In this document: positions 26,711 to 33,601 of the stretch, in pieces
How the letters are laid out: every line of letters begins with the position of its first letter
How positions within the stretch are numbered: position 1 is the stretch's first letter
NCBI GenBank assembly: GCA_026192395.1
Contig: WACF01000001.1
Location: forward strand, 186,001 to 250,000
Source of the DNA: Proteobacteria bacterium 005FR1
Lineage (GTDB): Bacteria; Pseudomonadota; Gammaproteobacteria; Pseudomonadales; Cellvibrionaceae
Direction: 5' to 3'
DNA length: 64,000 nucleotides
The notes under the pieces: model-generated
What the model was told of the DNA's origin: nothing
The model's database searches: none
What the model saw: the letters and a program-made list of their open reading frames with translations, nothing else
Program-made: the position numbers and the translations under genes

Positions 26711-26786
26711 GGGTGGTTAGCTCAGTTGGGAGAGCGACGGCCTTACAAGCCGTAGGTCGCAGGTTCGATCCCTGCACCACCCACCA
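26711..26786 (+). tRNA. tRNA-Val (anticodon TAC)
   Basis: 76 nt including an encoded CCA. The acceptor GGGTGGT pairs with ACCACCC, the D arm is TTAGCTCAGTTGGGAGAGC, the anticodon loop CTTACAA gives TAC and the T arm has GGTTCGATCC. No odd base was seen. Read from the promoter at 26666 together with tRNA-Asp. Confidence 0.97.
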
Positions 26787-26823
26787 AAAATTGCTGTCGA
26801 GATTTCGACAAGCAATTTATCGC

Positions 26824-26900
26824 GGACCGGTAGTTCAGCTGGTTAGAATGCCGGCCTGTCACGCCGGAGGTCGCGGGTTCGAGTCCCGTCCGGTCCGCCA
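26824..26900 (+). tRNA. tRNA-Asp (anticodon GTC)
   Basis: 77 nt including an encoded CCA. Acceptor GGACCGG pairs with CCGGTCC; anticodon loop CTGTCAC gives GTC; T arm GGGTTCGAGTCCC. Very like E. coli tRNA-Asp. A 37-nt spacer separates it from tRNA-Val, and a terminator follows 8 bp on. Confidence 0.97.
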
Positions 26901-26907
26901 CTATTCG

Positions 26908-26938
26908 AAAAAAAAGCGCTTACGAGCGCTTTTTTTTT
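26908..26938 (+). terminator. Intrinsic terminator of the tRNA unit
   Basis: AGCGCT, TACG loop, AGCGCT, flanked by an A-run before (26908-26915) and a T8 run after (26931-26938), so the stem extends to 13 bp or more. Also able to act on the other strand. Confidence 0.93.
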
Positions 26939-27105
26939 GCCTCCGGTTCTTCGCCTGAGCCCTGATCGCTTTCAGCCAGCCTCCTTACGAAAGATAGTCC
27001 CGGCGCATTGTTCCGTATGCGCAAGAGCGGGAACAAGCCGCCCGGCAATGCCAGATTTGAACTGGAGCCCGGGAGGGCTCCCACTTCTTACCAGAGGCAC
27101 ATCGG

Positions 27106-29418
27106 TCAGCCCTCCAGGTTTTTAGGGCGCCCCTGATCGGGCTTGCTGTAGTCGCATACCCCTTGGGGAAAGATCCTTTTCAAACGCGTGATTTCCGCGG
27201 CGCTGGGTGTCCAGGGTGCGTAGGTGCCGTCACTGAGAGCCAGATCCACCGGTTTCAAGGCGCATTTGAAGATGCTGCCCTCGATAGGTCCGCCAGCGAT
27301 CATCCGGGAAGTGGAATAGATCGGGAATTTTTCCGTGCAGACGCCCGGTTCCCGGTCATCCAGGATGCCGGCCCACACATCTGCACCGGATGCAATCAGG
27401 CTGCCATCGGTCGCGAAACAGCTGTCCACCGCTGCAGCCGGACGGTTTTCTGCCAGACTGCGATTCGGATTCGCTCGGATATTCATCAGCCATTCATGCA
27501 GCACCTCGAGCGCTTGGGGCGTCTGGTCGAAGGACCGTTCCGGGCGTGCATCCGTAAACCAGATTACCTGACCATCCGCATGGCCCATGGTGTTCAACAG
27601 GCGCTGGCGGGTGGAGAAGGACTGATGGGTGTTGTGCATGTCCAGCTCGTCCTCCAGGTAATGTCGCCAGTCAATCAAAGGAATATCAAGCTGGCCCCGA
27701 AAAACCATACCTGACTCGTACACGGATTGAATCGCTTGCAGATCCCCCTCGGTGCGAGGTGCCGGTGCCGAGTCATTTTTCGCCAGGTTCATATTGCGGC
27801 GACTCCAGGGATCGAAATTTTCCGGGCTCATTTCGCCCAGGTAGGGGTAGCCTTCCTGAACCATTTCCGCCGGCTTTTTCCAGCCGCCGATTTTTTCGTT
27901 CAGGTGCAGGAATTCCTCGGGGGTGATGTGCCCGTCGACCATCGACCGCAGCCCATACTGTACGCCCACGTTATCCCAGCCCACCCGGGGCCAACCCTCG
28001 GCATCCAGGCCATATATGTTGCGAAGGTCGTCATAGTGGGTCCAGTTCACGTTCTGCATGACTTCGGCGGGAACCATCTTTTCCTGCTCCCGGGCTCGGC
28101 CGTAATGGGGGTTCATCGTGAGCTGACTGAGTCCGCGCCAACCGGGGATGCATTCGGTGGAGCCGGGCGCAGTGCTATAGCCCAGCTGGCGTTTGGCGTC
28201 GGCCAGCGGATCCGGATGATCATCCGTTGCATTCAGTCCCACCAGGAGAGAGCGGTTCTTCGTTGTTTGCCAGCGGGGGTTTTCCCTGTCTGTCACGTCC
28301 ATGTAGTGCTCCAGCAGCTCGCAATCACCCACATGGATGCTCTGCGTAACCTGATCCGGATACGAGTATTGGGGGACACCGGCGTCGATGAGACCGGGGT
28401 GATTCTGAGAGTAGACATACTGCTGGATGGCGCCGCCGGAACCGCCGACACCGACGGTGTACAGGGGTTGGCCGAAACGCTCGATGAAACGTTCCTTGAC
28501 CATCAGCGCGGTTTCGCCGCCAACCTGCAGATTGTAGTGGGTGCTGGTGCGGGTACCCGTAGAGTAGGCCACTGCGTAGCCCTGACCCAGAGGGCCGGCG
28601 GTCAGTGCCCGACCTGGATCCATTCGGCCCTGGGAGTGACCGATACCCACGCCGCCCTGAAAGTAGTAGAGCAGGCGTCCATTCCAGTTGCGGGTGCCAG
28701 GTTCTTCCGGCACGTCACCGAGTTCGGCCAGGCTTGCGATGCTGTAGAGGAATCGGTTGAGGGTGCCGCGCTCCCAGCGGACAATGAAGTCCACTTCCCG
28801 GCCGTCGGTGAGGGTCGTGGTGACCATGTCTTCCGGTCGGGAACCGTCGTCCGGCAGCTTTTTGTATTCGCCATCTTCGCTCATGTAATGGAATTCGACG
28901 AAGGGCTCGACCGTGCAGTCCTTGCTGTATCCAATGACTTCCCCGGCTTCATTCCTCACCGGAAAACCAGCTTCCTTGCTGTCCACCACAGGCTGTACAT
29001 CCCACTCCAGCACCGATGTGCAGACAAAGGGGTATTGTTGAGGGCCCGAGAATATCGGCCCGGTAGTCGGGTGATTGATAAGCTTCAGGACTCGCAGTTC
29101 CTTGCCGTCGGCGCTCGCCAGAGCAAGCGTGTTGGCGCCAGTATCGAGGCCTTCCAGCAGAAATTCCGAACGGCCGTGGCGCGACCAGCTGGCTTTGGGT
29201 TGCACGGGTCGTCCGTTCAGGAGGAAACCTGGCGGCCTTCGGTCGTCCAGGCCTCTGACCGCCACCAGCACATCGCCGCCGGTAACTTGGTCCGGCGCAC
29301 TCGAAATCACATTAAATTGAATATCGGCTGTCGCGGGTTGTGCCTCGGCGGTCTGCTTGCATCCACCAAGAAGCACTCCTGCGGCAAAAATTACCAGAGC
29401 TCGGCTAAGGTAAGTCAC
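27106..29418 (-). CDS. DUF6351-like lipoprotein with an alpha/beta-hydrolase nucleophile motif
   Basis: 770 residues from a GTG with a GAGGGGG ribosome site. The head ends in LLGGC-K, a lipobox, so the protein is probably lipid-anchored in the periplasm or outer membrane. The rest resembles the DUF6351 family: FSGPQQYPFVC, YYFQGGVGIGHSQG and, at S327, GVGGSGGAIQQ, which has the small-x-Ser-x-small form of a hydrolase nucleophile elbow and is followed by PGLIDAGVPQYSYPD. Two later blocks, THYDDLRNIYG and GHADGQVIWFTDARP, hold candidate Asp and His. A secreted ester or polyester hydrolase is plausible, but substrate is unknown. It sits next to a lone PHA-system gene on the same strand, 159 bp away. 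Confidence 0.78.
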   Translation of the reverse strand: MTYLSRALVIFAAGVLLGGCKQTAEAQPATADIQFNVISSAPDQVTGGDVLVAVRGLDDRRPPGFLLNGRPVQPKASWSRHGRSEFLLEGLDTGANTLALASADGKELRVLKLINHPTTGPIFSGPQQYPFVCTSVLEWDVQPVVDSKEAGFPVRNEAGEVIGYSKDCTVEPFVEFHYMSEDGEYKKLPDDGSRPEDMVTTTLTDGREVDFIVRWERGTLNRFLYSIASLAELGDVPEEPGTRNWNGRLLYYFQGGVGIGHSQGRMDPGRALTAGPLGQGYAVAYSTGTRTSTHYNLQVGGETALMVKERFIERFGQPLYTVGVGGSGGAIQQYVYSQNHPGLIDAGVPQYSYPDQVTQSIHVGDCELLEHYMDVTDRENPRWQTTKNRSLLVGLNATDDHPDPLADAKRQLGYSTAPGSTECIPGWRGLSQLTMNPHYGRAREQEKMVPAEVMQNVNWTHYDDLRNIYGLDAEGWPRVGWDNVGVQYGLRSMVDGHITPEEFLHLNEKIGGWKKPAEMVQEGYPYLGEMSPENFDPWSRRNMNLAKNDSAPAPRTEGDLQAIQSVYESGMVFRGQLDIPLIDWRHYLEDELDMHNTHQSFSTRQRLLNTMGHADGQVIWFTDARPERSFDQTPQALEVLHEWLMNIRANPNRSLAENRPAAAVDSCFATDGSLIASGADVWAGILDDREPGVCTEKFPIYSTSRMIAGGPIEGSIFKCALKPVDLALSDGTYAPWTPSAAEITRLKRIFPQGVCDYSKPDQGRPKNLEG

Positions 29419-29577
29419 GGCATCCCCCTCTTATATATAGTTATTGGGTCAGATCGGTGAGAAATTGCTTTTGCGCGACAGCGCGATGCAAGCTCTAGGC
29501 CATCAAAGCCTGGCGGGCGACTGAAAATCAGACGTTAATCGTCAGGTTAGTTTATTGCTGCTTTTCTTGCTTTGAGA

Positions 29578-29856
29578 TCAGGCAAGCGTCCGGTCCAGAT
29601 AGTCGTTGATGATACGCTCCGCGCTGCCCTTCAACGGTGAGAGAAAAGCGTTGAGCTCCAGGTGGACTTCCAGTTCTCCTTTCTTCTGCTCGAGGTAACC
29701 TTTCGCGCCGCGTCGTTTGAATGCCAGGCGATTCTCGTTCTCCCAGTGGTATTGCGCCGACAGGCGTTCCGAAAGTTGCTGCGCCAGCTCTTCGATGTGC
29801 TGGCGCACAAAGGATTCGTCACGCTGATGTTCCCGGTTGATGTGAACGACTGCCAT
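29578..29856 (-). CDS. Polyhydroxyalkanoic acid system family protein
   Basis: 92 residues matching the small PHA_gran_rgn-type family often found near PHA synthase genes: an R-x-x-x-L start with HINREHQRDESFVRQHIEEL, YHWENENRLAFKRRGAKGYL and an amphipathic LNAFLSPLKGSAERIINDYL end. Its role in PHA granules is unproven. No phaC, phaA or phasin gene is in the window, so it stands apart from the usual cluster. Confidence 0.8.
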   Translation of the reverse strand: MAVVHINREHQRDESFVRQHIEELAQQLSERLSAQYHWENENRLAFKRRGAKGYLEQKKGELEVHLELNAFLSPLKGSAERIINDYLDRTLA

Positions 29857-30086
29857 ATCACCTCTCGCTTCCCGTGCTCGTTATCTGCCCCGCAACCATC
29901 CGTCAAGCAACTGGCGTCCGGCAACTGTCTCCGGACTGATTGCCCCCATTTTATGCAACCCCGGTTCCACCGCTTCCCATTCTCTTGTGGCAAGGTGATT
30001 GAATGTCAAAGCAGGGCCCGACTAATCCGCCGACGGCGATCAACGTTTGCCCGGGGCGAACTGGTCATTCATTTGCCGGGTAAGCT

Positions 30087-31577
30087 ATGAAGCTGAGAAC
30101 CGCTGTCGGCATTTTCATCGCAATTTCCTTCGCACTATTCCTCGCGTTGGCGGCATCGCTATTTCGCGTATCTGAGTTGCTGGATCGCAGTGCGCGAGAC
30201 GTGGCCCTTGCGGGCGAGGGCATCCGAATCGGAGAAGAACTCAAATCCACTCTTCTGACCCACAATCGGAATGCCTTCCTGTACTCCCTTCGCGGCGAGC
30301 CCTGGCGCGTGGATACCCGGCGGGAGCAGCGCCGTGAAATTATCAACATTCTTGCCAACCTGCGCTTGGTGACTGCCAGTCCGGAAGAGGAACGGATCGT
30401 TACCGAGTTGCGGGATCAGGTCCAGATCTACTTCGACCAACGACGTGCGCTGGCCGAAGCTGGCGTTTCGCCTCTTGCAGAGTACCTTCAGATCAGCGAT
30501 TACGTGAATGGCGTAGTCGTGGAGGTGGACCGGTTAACCGCGCTGAACAGCGCCCGGATGAACCTGGTGATGGCTGAAATTGACGAACGCAACGCGCTAG
30601 CCAACGACCTTGCCATACTGCTTCTGTCACTGAGCGCGGGCCTGTTGTTGGCACTCATGGCGGCAGCCTATTTTTTTGCGGCCCGACCGCTATCACGTCT
30701 CGCCGCATCGGTGGAAAGCTACGGGAAGGGTGAAAGTGGGGCTCGTGTCCGTCCGACTGGCCTGACGGAGCTCAAGGAAATAGGAGCCAGCTTCAATGCG
30801 ATGGCGGAGCGCCTCGAGCAGCGCCGTCAGGACCAGTTACGGTTCGTGGCGTCCATCGCCCATGACTTACGCAATCCCCTGCATTCGATTCGCCTCGCCG
30901 CGGAAGTTCTGACACACAAGATTGGTGCATCCGGCGACGGGGGAGGGGAGCGGGAGCTTTCCGAAATGCTGCGTCGCCAGATCAGGAGCCTGGACCTGAT
31001 GCTCCAGGATCTGCTCGACACGAGCCGAATCGAAGCCGGCCATCTGGACCTGATTCGAACAGTGCGCGACATTCGCCCGCTGGTCCAGGACGCAGTCGAT
31101 TTGCACCGGAGCAGTGCTGAGCTTCACGAATTGATCCTCGATTTACCTGATGCACCGGTACTGTGCCATTGCGACCCACTCAGATGCTCACAGGTGATGA
31201 ACAATCTCTTGTCCAATGCGATCAAGTACTCCCCAAATGGCGGGGTGATTACGGTCCGGGTCGAGTCCGGGGGAGACAACGTCGAGATTTCGGTACACGA
31301 CCAGGGGATCGGCATCGATCCCGCCGACCTGAGTAGTATCTTCAAGCCCTTCCAGCGTAGCGCGGCCACCCGGGAAACCATCCCAGGCATCGGATTGGGG
31401 CTTTCAGTCAGCCGCCGCATCGTCGAGGCGCACGGTGGCAGGCTGGAAGTGATCAGCGTCCCTGGAGAAGGATCGACCTTCACTATCCAACTCCCCCGCG
31501 CTCAGGCCGAGGCGCAGATGCCGCCCCTGCGAGAACCCTTGCAGCGCCCGGGCTCCGAGCGGGATGTGCGGCACTGA
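30087..31577 (+). CDS. Orphan HAMP-domain sensor histidine kinase
   Basis: 496 residues: TM1 (~5-28), a mostly helical periplasmic part (~29-168), TM2 (~172-197, long and Leu/Ala-rich), HAMP (~198-250), phosphoacceptor ASIAHDLRNPLHSIRLA, N box MNNLLSNAIKYSPNGG, G1 DQGIGIDPADL and G2 GIGLGLSVSRRIVEAHGG. Cytoplasmic part ends with an unstructured Pro-rich tail. No response regulator is adjacent. Directly downstream lie a sigma-54-type promoter and an acidic microprotein gene, raising the possibility that they form one circuit, though nothing in the sequence proves it. Confidence 0.88.
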   Translation: MKLRTAVGIFIAISFALFLALAASLFRVSELLDRSARDVALAGEGIRIGEELKSTLLTHNRNAFLYSLRGEPWRVDTRREQRREIINILANLRLVTASPEEERIVTELRDQVQIYFDQRRALAEAGVSPLAEYLQISDYVNGVVVEVDRLTALNSARMNLVMAEIDERNALANDLAILLLSLSAGLLLALMAAAYFFAARPLSRLAASVESYGKGESGARVRPTGLTELKEIGASFNAMAERLEQRRQDQLRFVASIAHDLRNPLHSIRLAAEVLTHKIGASGDGGGERELSEMLRRQIRSLDLMLQDLLDTSRIEAGHLDLIRTVRDIRPLVQDAVDLHRSSAELHELILDLPDAPVLCHCDPLRCSQVMNNLLSNAIKYSPNGGVITVRVESGGDNVEISVHDQGIGIDPADLSSIFKPFQRSAATRETIPGIGLGLSVSRRIVEAHGGRLEVISVPGEGSTFTIQLPRAQAEAQMPPLREPLQRPGSERDVRH

Positions 31578-31640
31578 GCGGCGGCGACGGTAATGCCGCT
31601 GTCATATCCGCTCTGCAAACTGGCTGGCAAGGGTATTTGC

Positions 31641-31656
31641 TGGCACGGGAGTTGCT
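31641..31656 (+). promoter_or_regulatory. Sigma-54 (RpoN) promoter
   Basis: TGGCACGGGAGTTGCT matches the RpoN consensus TGGCACG-N4-TTGCW at every defined base, and the invariant GG (31642-31643) and GC (31654-31655) are exactly 10 nt apart. Transcription should begin near 31667. No enhancer-binding protein gene is in the window. Downstream sequence is the 28-codon acidic ORF. Confidence 0.8.
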
Positions 31657-31799
31657 CTAGGTCGGCCGTGTCAATCGACCCAGCGCCGGGCTGGACAGAT
31701 TGCCAGCCAGCCTGGCTTCAAGAGAACTGAGGGATCGGGGCCGTCCCGACGAACGTCCCGGTTCACCCAACAGGCACAATAGGATAGGAGATCGTAACG

Positions 31800-31886
31800 A
31801 TGCAGGACTACCTTGAGGAAGTGCTCGACTCCCAGGAGCTGGAGTATGAGGATGATCAAGAGCTCGATGAGTGGCTGGAAGTCTGA
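31800..31886 (+). CDS. Putative 28-residue acidic microprotein
   Basis: ATG with AGGAG nine nt upstream. The product starts MQDYLEEVLDS and ends DEWLEV; 13 of 28 residues are Asp or Glu and there is no Lys, Arg, His or Cys. A heptad-like spacing of Leu/Val/Trp suggests an amphipathic acidic helix. It is flanked by a sigma-54 promoter 144 bp upstream and a hairpin-T5 terminator 49 bp downstream, so it would be the only ORF of a ~290-nt transcript. I do not recognise a family. The alternative is that the transcript is an sRNA and the ORF is chance, but a good ribosome site and the skewed composition favour translation. Confidence 0.5.
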   Translation: MQDYLEEVLDSQELEYEDDQELDEWLEV

Positions 31887-31934
31887 CCGCTTCAGCACCC
31901 GAAGGAGAAAGACAAAAGCCCGGGCGACGAGCTC

Positions 31935-31959
31935 GGGTGTTCGAATCCGAACCCTTTTT
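31935..31959 (+). terminator. Terminator after the microprotein ORF
   Basis: GGG-T-GTTCG, loop AATC, CGAAC-CC, then TTTTT (31955-31959). Five continuous pairs plus three outer pairs past a single bulged T. Weaker than the tRNA terminator but well placed. Confidence 0.6.
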
Positions 31960-32152: not shown

Positions 32153-33601
32153 ATGGTCAGCACAGACGCGGAGCTTTCCGAGGCGGTATTGTTCATTGAG
32201 CACGGCCGCGTTACCCGCGAAATGCTCTATTCCGAGTTTGAGGCGATTCTGGACGGAGTCGTCCCGATGGTCGATTTTGCCGGCGGTTCGGCAAAGGCCG
32301 TATATCTGCGCATCGACGAGCAACTCTGCATCGGTGCGGCGGTATTCTTTCGGATCAGCTTCGACGCCCAGGGCAACGCCGACAAGCGCTGGAATGTCCC
32401 GCTGGTTCAGTTCGCAGAAAACTCCGCTCGCGGACCCGACCTCGGCGCAGGCCCGATCCGGCTCGCCTGTCACAGTCAGTGCTCGATCGCGTGGCATCAG
32501 CACAACCTCTGGGACCCGGACATGACGCCGGGCGCCAATGATTTCATTCTTCTGAAGAAAGCGATCAAGGCAAACCGCCTCGGGCTGCGCTATCGCCCCA
32601 GGTCGGAGCAGCATGCAGGCGTGCCTCCGCGCGTTGAAGCCAAGTCAGCTGCGCAGTCGGTCCAGCCCCCTGAGCCGCTTACCAGCGCATTCTCAACAGG
32701 AGCGCAGCCCAGCGAGTTGCAGACCCGGGAAATCGAGCACCGAGTATCGCAACAGCTGCGCCGCAAATTTGAGCAGGAATTTCGCGATCACATGGCGCGT
32801 CTGCTGAAAGAGCAGCGTTTGCGTATTCTCACGCTCAATAGCAAGCGCAAGCAGGAAATCCAGCAGCAGCAGCTCGTTCATCAGCAGCGTTTGCAAGAGT
32901 ACCGGCATCAGCTGGACAAGCGGCAGCAGGAACTGGAACTCCAGACGCAACGCAACGAAGCGCTGAAAGAAACCATCGAAGGGCAGGCCAAAAAGATCGA
33001 GGGTCTGCGAGAATATTTTGAGCACAAGCTCAAATCAGCGCAGCTGGATGAAAATGCACAGGTCAGCGCGCTGAAGCAAAACTACGAAGCGGAAGTGTCG
33101 GCCAAGGTGGAGGCCGCCACCCTTGAGCTGAAAGAGAAACTGCAGTTGCGGGAAATCGAGTTGATGTATCGCCGCGAGCAGGAAAGCAGTCTCGAAGAAG
33201 AAGTGCGACGCCTGCGCGAGCAAAACCAGGCGATGCTGAACAACACCAGCGAGCAGCTGCTCGAGAAGCTGGAGAAGGCCGGGCTTAACTTCGTTGCCTA
33301 CCACCCCGGTGCGGGTCATCTCACCATCCCGCTCGCGGACATGAGCTGCTATATGGACAACCCGACCGCCTATGCGGCTGAAAAATGCGGTGTCAGCCTG
33401 AATCAATACCGGGACTGGCTCGCCCACTACAAACAACCCGTGTGTCAGGCACTGGGTGCCCGCGGCGACGTTTGCGGCGGGGCGATCGAGCGTGTCCCGA
33501 CACCGAGTCAGTTCCACACGGGTGAGCACGACCGTTGCGATCACCATCGCACATCCCCCACCCGGACTTTCGCGGCAGTGGGCAAGAATGCGGTCGTTTG
33601 A
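32153..33601 (+). CDS. Large coiled-coil protein with N-terminal globular part and Cys/His tail, function unknown
   Basis: 482 residues. The first ~150 form a folded domain (EAVLFIEHGRVTREMLYSEF, then AVYLRIDEQL and a WHQHNLWDPD motif). Residues ~180-385 are a continuous coiled coil rich in Gln, Glu, Lys and Arg. The last ~85 residues hold five cysteines (399, 412, 431, 441, 462) and clustered histidines (455, 459, 464, 465), with CGGAIERVPTPSQFHTGEH ending in DRCDHH, which looks like a metal-binding site. I do not recognise a named family. It follows the sigma-54 microprotein unit by 266 bp and may use its own promoter. No signal peptide or TM helix, so cytoplasmic. Confidence 0.75.
   Translation: MVSTDAELSEAVLFIEHGRVTREMLYSEFEAILDGVVPMVDFAGGSAKAVYLRIDEQLCIGAAVFFRISFDAQGNADKRWNVPLVQFAENSARGPDLGAGPIRLACHSQCSIAWHQHNLWDPDMTPGANDFILLKKAIKANRLGLRYRPRSEQHAGVPPRVEAKSAAQSVQPPEPLTSAFSTGAQPSELQTREIEHRVSQQLRRKFEQEFRDHMARLLKEQRLRILTLNSKRKQEIQQQQLVHQQRLQEYRHQLDKRQQELELQTQRNEALKETIEGQAKKIEGLREYFEHKLKSAQLDENAQVSALKQNYEAEVSAKVEAATLELKEKLQLREIELMYRREQESSLEEEVRRLREQNQAMLNNTSEQLLEKLEKAGLNFVAYHPGAGHLTIPLADMSCYMDNPTAYAAEKCGVSLNQYRDWLAHYKQPVCQALGARGDVCGGAIERVPTPSQFHTGEHDRCDHHRTSPTRTFAAVGKNAVV

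Follow-up and report, generated by a model that had tools for sequence, protein, structure and literature searches.

A conserved acidic microprotein of the Pseudomonadales with predicted PhoB-type and sigma-54 promoters, a candidate small protein of starvation responses

MgrB, MgtS and SafA are membrane peptides that are induced by the sensing system to which they relate and that act by binding a partner. Short sigma-54-dependent units produce the non-coding RNAs CrcZ, NrsZ, Qrr and GlmY, DSS1/SEM1 binds the OB-fold, and the small DUF1127 proteins are basic. According to the excerpted text of one study, small DUF1127 proteins (YjiS and the SDPs of A. tumefaciens) contact PhoR and are linked to phosphate metabolism (PMC12501420).

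Here we describe a 28-residue microprotein encoded in the window, i.e. the whole stretch of 64,000 nucleotides that was analysed, and its relatives. Like the DUF1127 proteins, it is shorter than about 50 residues and has a tie to phosphate, in this case a predicted Pho box, but it belongs to another sequence family (no DUF1127 match for 25 members in Pfam at E<=0.1) and is acidic. It would share with MgrB, MgtS and SafA the character of a stress-induced small regulator, induction and partner binding being proposals on our part, yet unlike them it is without a hydrophobic stretch. Its unit resembles those of CrcZ, NrsZ, Qrr and GlmY in being short, monocistronic and placed behind a -24/-12 promoter, but differs from them in containing a reading frame under selection. 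With DSS1/SEM1 (PF05160) it has in common its short length, its acidity and the presence of aromatic residues. That family is, however, eukaryotic, and the resemblance concerns a single one of 25 members, with 18.5 bits against a Pfam cut-off of 32.2; on such evidence we do not regard the microprotein as a homologue.

The features of the locus are the following.

26711..26900, + strand: tRNA-Val(TAC) (26711-26786) and tRNA-Asp(GTC) (26824-26900), a pair found 5' of the microprotein gene in most relatives.
31588..31605, + strand: predicted Pho box CGGTAAT-GCCG-CTGTCAT, matching 12/14 positions of the direct-repeat consensus (motif scan and family conservation).
31616..31621, + strand: -10-like hexamer CAAACT, exactly 10 nt 3' of the Pho box; it follows the xAxxxT pattern seen across the family.
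31641..31656, + strand: predicted -24/-12 (sigma-54) promoter TGGCACGGGAGTTGCT, with a predicted start near 31666 (motif match).
31786..31790, + strand: ribosome-binding site AGGAG, 9 nt 5' of the ATG; the Shine-Dalgarno sequence is also conserved in family f38.
31800..31886, + strand: microprotein gene, MQDYLEEVLDSQELEYEDDQELDEWLEV, ATG start, 28 aa.
31933..31957, + strand: terminator-like hairpin followed by T5 (sequence and fold).

The first-pass annotation of this DNA had proposed a stand-alone acidic microprotein of a family unknown to it, preceded by a good ribosome site and followed by a T5 hairpin closing the unit. A recount gave the same composition, with 13 Asp or Glu among the 28 residues and no Lys, Arg, His or Cys, and both the ribosome site and the hairpin are present. 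It had also called the frame the only ORF of the unit; the frame is there, but same-strand ORFs of 38, 40, 45 and 70 aa overlap it, and among these overlapping ORFs the conservation tests reported below covered the 28-aa frame only. The stretch GTTCGAATCC inside the terminator hairpin resembles a tRNA T-loop, possibly by chance and possibly as the remnant of a tRNA.

When the 28 residues were searched against 97 relatives, 11 genomes matched at E<=1, the window's own included, and in 6 of these 11 the match precedes one and the same coiled-coil gene. Next, a 37-member profile recovered 67 of the 144 genomes of the window's family (f1) at E<=0.1, with one match per genome; this tally includes G134, a match that spans residues 1-9 only and is probably false. 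Matches were obtained in 154 of 198 genomes of f20, a Pseudomonas-like family, at E<=0.5 with profiles that included more distant members, and at E<=0.1 in 27/44 genomes of f38 and 5/5 of f34. An order-wide profile found 46 of 332 genomes at E<=0.01, distributed over f1, f19, f20, f28, f34, f37 and f38, with one doubtful match in f5. Relatives are thus present in seven families of the order Pseudomonadales; those with a genus name in f1 (7 loci) are from Aestuariicella, Pseudomaricurvus and Gilvimarinus. The conservation in related genomes for which the first-pass annotation had suggested looking was therefore found, the ORF being kept across the order. Two matches in f14 (L134 and L136) were rejected because only 13-16 codons precede a stop, as were G224 and G750, whose matches lie inside long frames. 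The tallies quoted include such false matches (f14, G134, G224, G750) where the underlying search counted them. Conversely, some members escape the profiles: at E<=0.01, A5 loses G018, G022 and G044, which A1 recovers at E<=0.1.

A class-wide profile search matched 2 of 274 genomes, both inside the order, and an earlier search of 369 genomes of the class returned the window's genome and one doubtful match, so that no credible relative outside the order was found in the class searches. Plasmids searched with one f20 peptide gave no match. We take f20 to be the Pseudomonadaceae, on the basis of a comparison of its loci with the gene order of P. aeruginosa (xcpZ, tRNAs, PA3094, a fadH-like gene); the order carrying the microprotein thus seems to include Pseudomonas.

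None of the families of NCBIfam and PHROGs was matched by members of the microprotein family, Pfam gave two weak single-member matches only (25 members, E<=0.1), and the PDB three weak ones (E 0.17-1.1). Among the matches listed for the main text of open papers, there was no paper on the microprotein, and the letters of the peptide taken together with 'PA3094.1' gave no match there. These findings, together with the relatives in seven families, bear out the idea of a stand-alone protein without a described family. They point to an undescribed family of the Pseudomonadales, of 26-42 aa, very acidic and, as judged by eye, without a membrane segment.

The comparison of synonymous and nonsynonymous sites, also suggested by the first-pass annotation, indicated coding selection. 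The pooled pN/pS was 0.195 in frame versus 2.455 and 1.342 in the shifted frames, and pN was lower than pS in 687 of 690 pairs (29/29 in f1, 486/489 in f20, 172/172 in f38), the pairs being of the same length, 75-98.5% identical in DNA and not independent of each other. Selection, as read from these substitution patterns, is acting on the microprotein reading frame, and comparative sequence shows this acidic ORF of 28 residues to be a genuine gene, from which we infer that it is translated. The members share the motif M-x-D-Y-x-E-E-L-L ... D-D-x-x-E-hydrophobic, in which the middle varies in length and the C-terminal end mostly reads D-D/E-x-x-[DE]-hydrophobic. M1, D3 and Y4 are invariant in five alignments, and E6 and L8 or L9 nearly so; the invariance of D3 and of Y/F4 is partly by construction, because the pattern used to pick members required Asp3 and Tyr/Phe4. 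Glu, Tyr and Leu positions are as well conserved as those of Asp. Three f28 members (L259-L261) read MEHYQDELLEKQEFEFDDEVDDAFEM and the like; they carry His3, and G327 carries Glu3, with Y4 kept in both cases.

For the analysis of promoters we used 140 distinct upstream regions, which leave out L259-L261 and G327. Entries had been collapsed to distinct 120-nt stretches before counting; since species remain related, the counts are not independent events. The matrices for the Pho box and the sigma-54 site were made by hand after the general consensus of each site. The Pho box, which the first-pass annotation had overlooked, was first spotted by eye on L139, L142, L144 and L145, loci that are among those later scored. 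The box of the window is the sole match with at most 2 mismatches in the 64 kb (0.40 expected), but by itself it proves little, because 32 of 100 shuffles also have at least one. Across the family, a score of at least 12 was reached by 64 of the 140 regions with the 4-nt spacer versus 1-11 with nine other spacers (0-9 nt). At a score of at least 10, the figures were 83/140 with spacer 4 versus 8-45 for the controls, or 8-27 when tRNA genes were masked. The highest control, spacer 9 (45 regions unmasked, mostly from f20), arose from the tRNA-Asp gene itself: in f20 it matched as often as the true spacer before masking of tRNA-Asp, which cut it from 29 to 5 of 47. Spacer 7 also stood above the other controls (27/140 at a score of at least 10, of which 18/59 in f1).

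Boxes scoring at least 10 were present in 37/59 regions of f1, 21/47 of f20, where the box is weaker, 22/25 of f38, 2/2 of f19, 1/2 of f37 and 0/5 of f34; 57 of the 140 regions scored below 10, including 26/47 in f20 and all 5 in f34. A hexamer xAxxxT begins exactly 10 nt after 75 of the 83 boxes, versus 0-13 for any other offset between 3 and 19. The CAAACT of the window fits this rule but is poor as a -10. Across the microprotein family, the predicted Pho box is the best supported control.

The predicted sigma-54 promoter, with which the first-pass annotation had started, is exact in the window: TGGCACGGGAGTTGCT matches TGGCAC-N5-TTGCW with GG and GC 10 nt apart, and begins 35 nt after the 3' end of the Pho box. 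This pattern has 6 matches in the 4.34-Mb genome (both strands), which corresponds to an expectation of about 1.5e-4 for the + strand of the gap at 31578-31799 (222 nt). In f38, 23/25 regions scored at least 12 with the true spacing versus 0-2 with other spacers. The five f34 regions all scored at least 10 (other spacers 0-1), and one of them at least 12. In an alignment of f38 regions, little apart from the Pho box, the -10, the sigma-54 site, the Shine-Dalgarno sequence and the ATG is conserved, and the length of the region varies. The site is supported by its conservation in f38 and f34, but within f1 it is not a common feature: the window alone scored at least 12 (1/59) and 3/59 at least 10, a number like that of the controls. 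It was found in none of the 4 entries of f19 and f37, nor in 8 further loci of these families. A first scan (at least 10/12 matches, coiled-coil loci) had led us to consider the site unique to the window and probably accidental, a view that f38 and f34 overturned.

Sigma-54-like sequences were also seen in 23/47 f20 regions at a score of at least 12 (controls 0-1); almost all of these read TTGTT at the position of TTGCW. At f20 loci (e.g. L144, L167, L178), TGGCATGGTCTTTGTT lies about 48-62 nt 5' of the ATG, at an almost constant position directly behind the Pho promoter; it may be a degenerate sigma-54 site or another element. Patterns for NtrC, for IHF and for one palindrome were not above shuffles in 31 upstream regions. 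Some f38 loci (L139, L157, L222-L224 and others) show GGGAACTY..., then a CGACTA/TTTA-like stretch, between the Pho box and the sigma-54 site, and this partly conserved stretch could be a candidate activator site.

The surroundings of the gene were compared as well. Upstream sequence of 1000 nt or more was covered for 130 distinct entries; in 94 of them a tRNA-Asp gene of the same strand stands no more than 1000 nt away (f1 35/51, f20 32/49, f38 16/17, f34 5/5, f19 6/6, f37 0/2), and in most entries tRNA-Val precedes it. In the window the pair is 4.9 kb upstream of the ORF, a link that the first-pass annotation had overlooked. There, genes for a DUF6351 (tannase-like) protein, PHA_gran_rgn and a histidine kinase (26900-31577) split the pair from the microprotein gene, probably as the result of an insertion or rearrangement. 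The microprotein gene is not just a continuation of the tRNA unit, because a hairpin and T-run, seen by eye in L144 and L145 after tRNA-Asp, separate the tRNA from the Pho box; it appears to be a separate transcription unit with its own predicted promoters.

The first-pass annotation had thought of a local circuit with the upstream histidine kinase and the downstream coiled-coil protein, and here the comparison gave no support. Matches to the window's kinase occur at ten loci, all at 26-39% identity and in the catalytic part only. Seven of these (L153, L159, L160, L162-L165) share one other kinase, in our own reading a PAS-like sensor kinase, which is 47-81% identical among them, 28-39% identical to the window's kinase in the catalytic part only, and encoded on the opposite strand further upstream, near the tRNA pair. 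Because these loci carry another kinase, that of the window belongs to this genome rather than to the gene order of the family in the loci covered, many of which had a flank of 1.5 kb only, so that a kinase further off would escape. In a large part of f1 the next gene after the ORF is the coiled-coil gene, which is not so at L148, L150, L151 and L152.

From these elements we infer dependence on PhoB and RpoN. We consider it likely that the gene encodes a microprotein of a new family which, from PhoB-type and sigma-54 promoters of its own, would be made in nutrient-limited cells, dock on a protein partner and tune a regulator. The PhoB-type promoter would consist of two 7-nt repeats with a 4-nt spacer, the -10 hexamer following 10 nt further on. 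A box at such a distance from the -10 lets PhoB take the place of the -35 contact, and given this arrangement it would do so here at low phosphate. The second promoter, in the window, f38 and f34, would be a sigma-54 promoter fired by an RpoN activator. Phosphate shortage, plus the RpoN-activator signal in some groups, would thus raise the level of the short acidic peptide. Its conserved N-terminus, M-x-D-Y-x-E-E-L-L, could judging by the sequence form a short helix and is probably the part that docks on a protein partner: Y4, L8 and L9 would be near one face, as is usual in docking helices. Charge or a second contact may come from the acidic linker, which varies, and from the C-terminus, whose acidic-hydrophobic character is conserved. 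The most likely target in starvation would be a cytoplasmic regulator or a basic, nucleic-acid-binding protein.

A short monocistronic unit with a hairpin terminator and a sigma-54 promoter is reminiscent of several known small RNAs, and the untranslated leader may reach about 200 nt. The locus might then specify a regulatory small RNA in which the short ORF plays a minor part or none, or an RNA with two functions. This is very unlikely: Rfam has no match at the locus, folding of the transcript is not above chance (z -0.86; 37/200 shuffles equally good), the in-frame pN/pS is low, and in f38 the upstream region varies strongly in length and sequence except for the promoters and the Shine-Dalgarno sequence while the ORF is kept. 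It is most improbable that the ORF encodes a leader peptide for the coiled-coil gene, a view favoured by the position of that gene in a large part of f1. At the f19, f20 and f38 loci for which neighbours were listed, a convergent gene comes next, and the coiled-coil gene is not adjacent at the four loci named above. The same low probability applies to a sensor of Asp codons serving the neighbouring tRNA-Asp, as an Asp-rich peptide behind a tRNA-Asp gene might suggest, since Glu, Tyr and Leu positions are conserved equally and in L144 and L145 the unit of the tRNAs seems to stop upstream of the Pho box.

The two other explanations concern the partner. Since small DUF1127 proteins bind PhoR in the excerpted text already cited (PMC12501420), it is a natural guess that the microprotein, induced by PhoB as the architecture of the Pho box would predict, acts on PhoR, PhoU or a transporter by binding it, so as to weaken or extend the response. 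We regard such feedback as unlikely, because the presence of sigma-54 sites speaks for a function in starvation more generally; in particular, f34 has this site without a Pho box, which suggests a role wider than phosphate. Alternatively, the acidic-aromatic peptide could mimic nucleic acid and occupy the basic groove of a DNA- or RNA-binding protein in starvation, as its many acidic and absent basic residues and the sub-threshold resemblance of one member to DSS1/SEM1 may suggest. This is quite unlikely in our opinion, as the latter match is most likely compositional and the conserved core seems to be amphipathic and not acidic throughout.

We therefore retain the reading of a docking microprotein of nutrient-limited cells. 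Because the upstream DNA carries switches typical of phosphate starvation and of RpoN, what annotation has missed is probably a small starvation-response protein. More tentatively, it is possible that this unannotated microprotein, induced by PhoB and RpoN throughout the order, is a common effector at the point where both starvation responses meet. If this reading holds, the order has a widely conserved Pho-box gene without a name or function. Regulon studies in Pseudomonas begin from annotated genes, so an unannotated gene of 28 codons would easily be passed over; one such study indeed speaks of genes in its excerpted text (PMC4513871). A guess made by eye in one genome, from a promoter and a tiny ORF, could be largely decided by comparative sequence alone.

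Some further observations were made on the flanking genes. Up to three tRNA-Val/tRNA-Asp pairs precede the microprotein gene at L123, L126-L129, L139 and L141, and at some f20 loci the anticodon of tRNA-Val is CAC or tRNA-Asp is doubled. The coiled-coil protein of the window (32153-33601, + strand, 482 aa), for which Pfam and NCBIfam gave no match, is present in 77 of the 97 genomes searched and shows a conserved block of some 150 aa at its N-terminus and another block at its C-terminus. In our own reading, its gene is followed in L147 and L153 by a D-cysteine-desulfhydrase-like gene, and the microprotein gene of L148, L150 (g10), L151 and L152 lies beside a cation antiporter, a fumarylacetoacetase-like or a GTP-cyclohydrolase-like gene.
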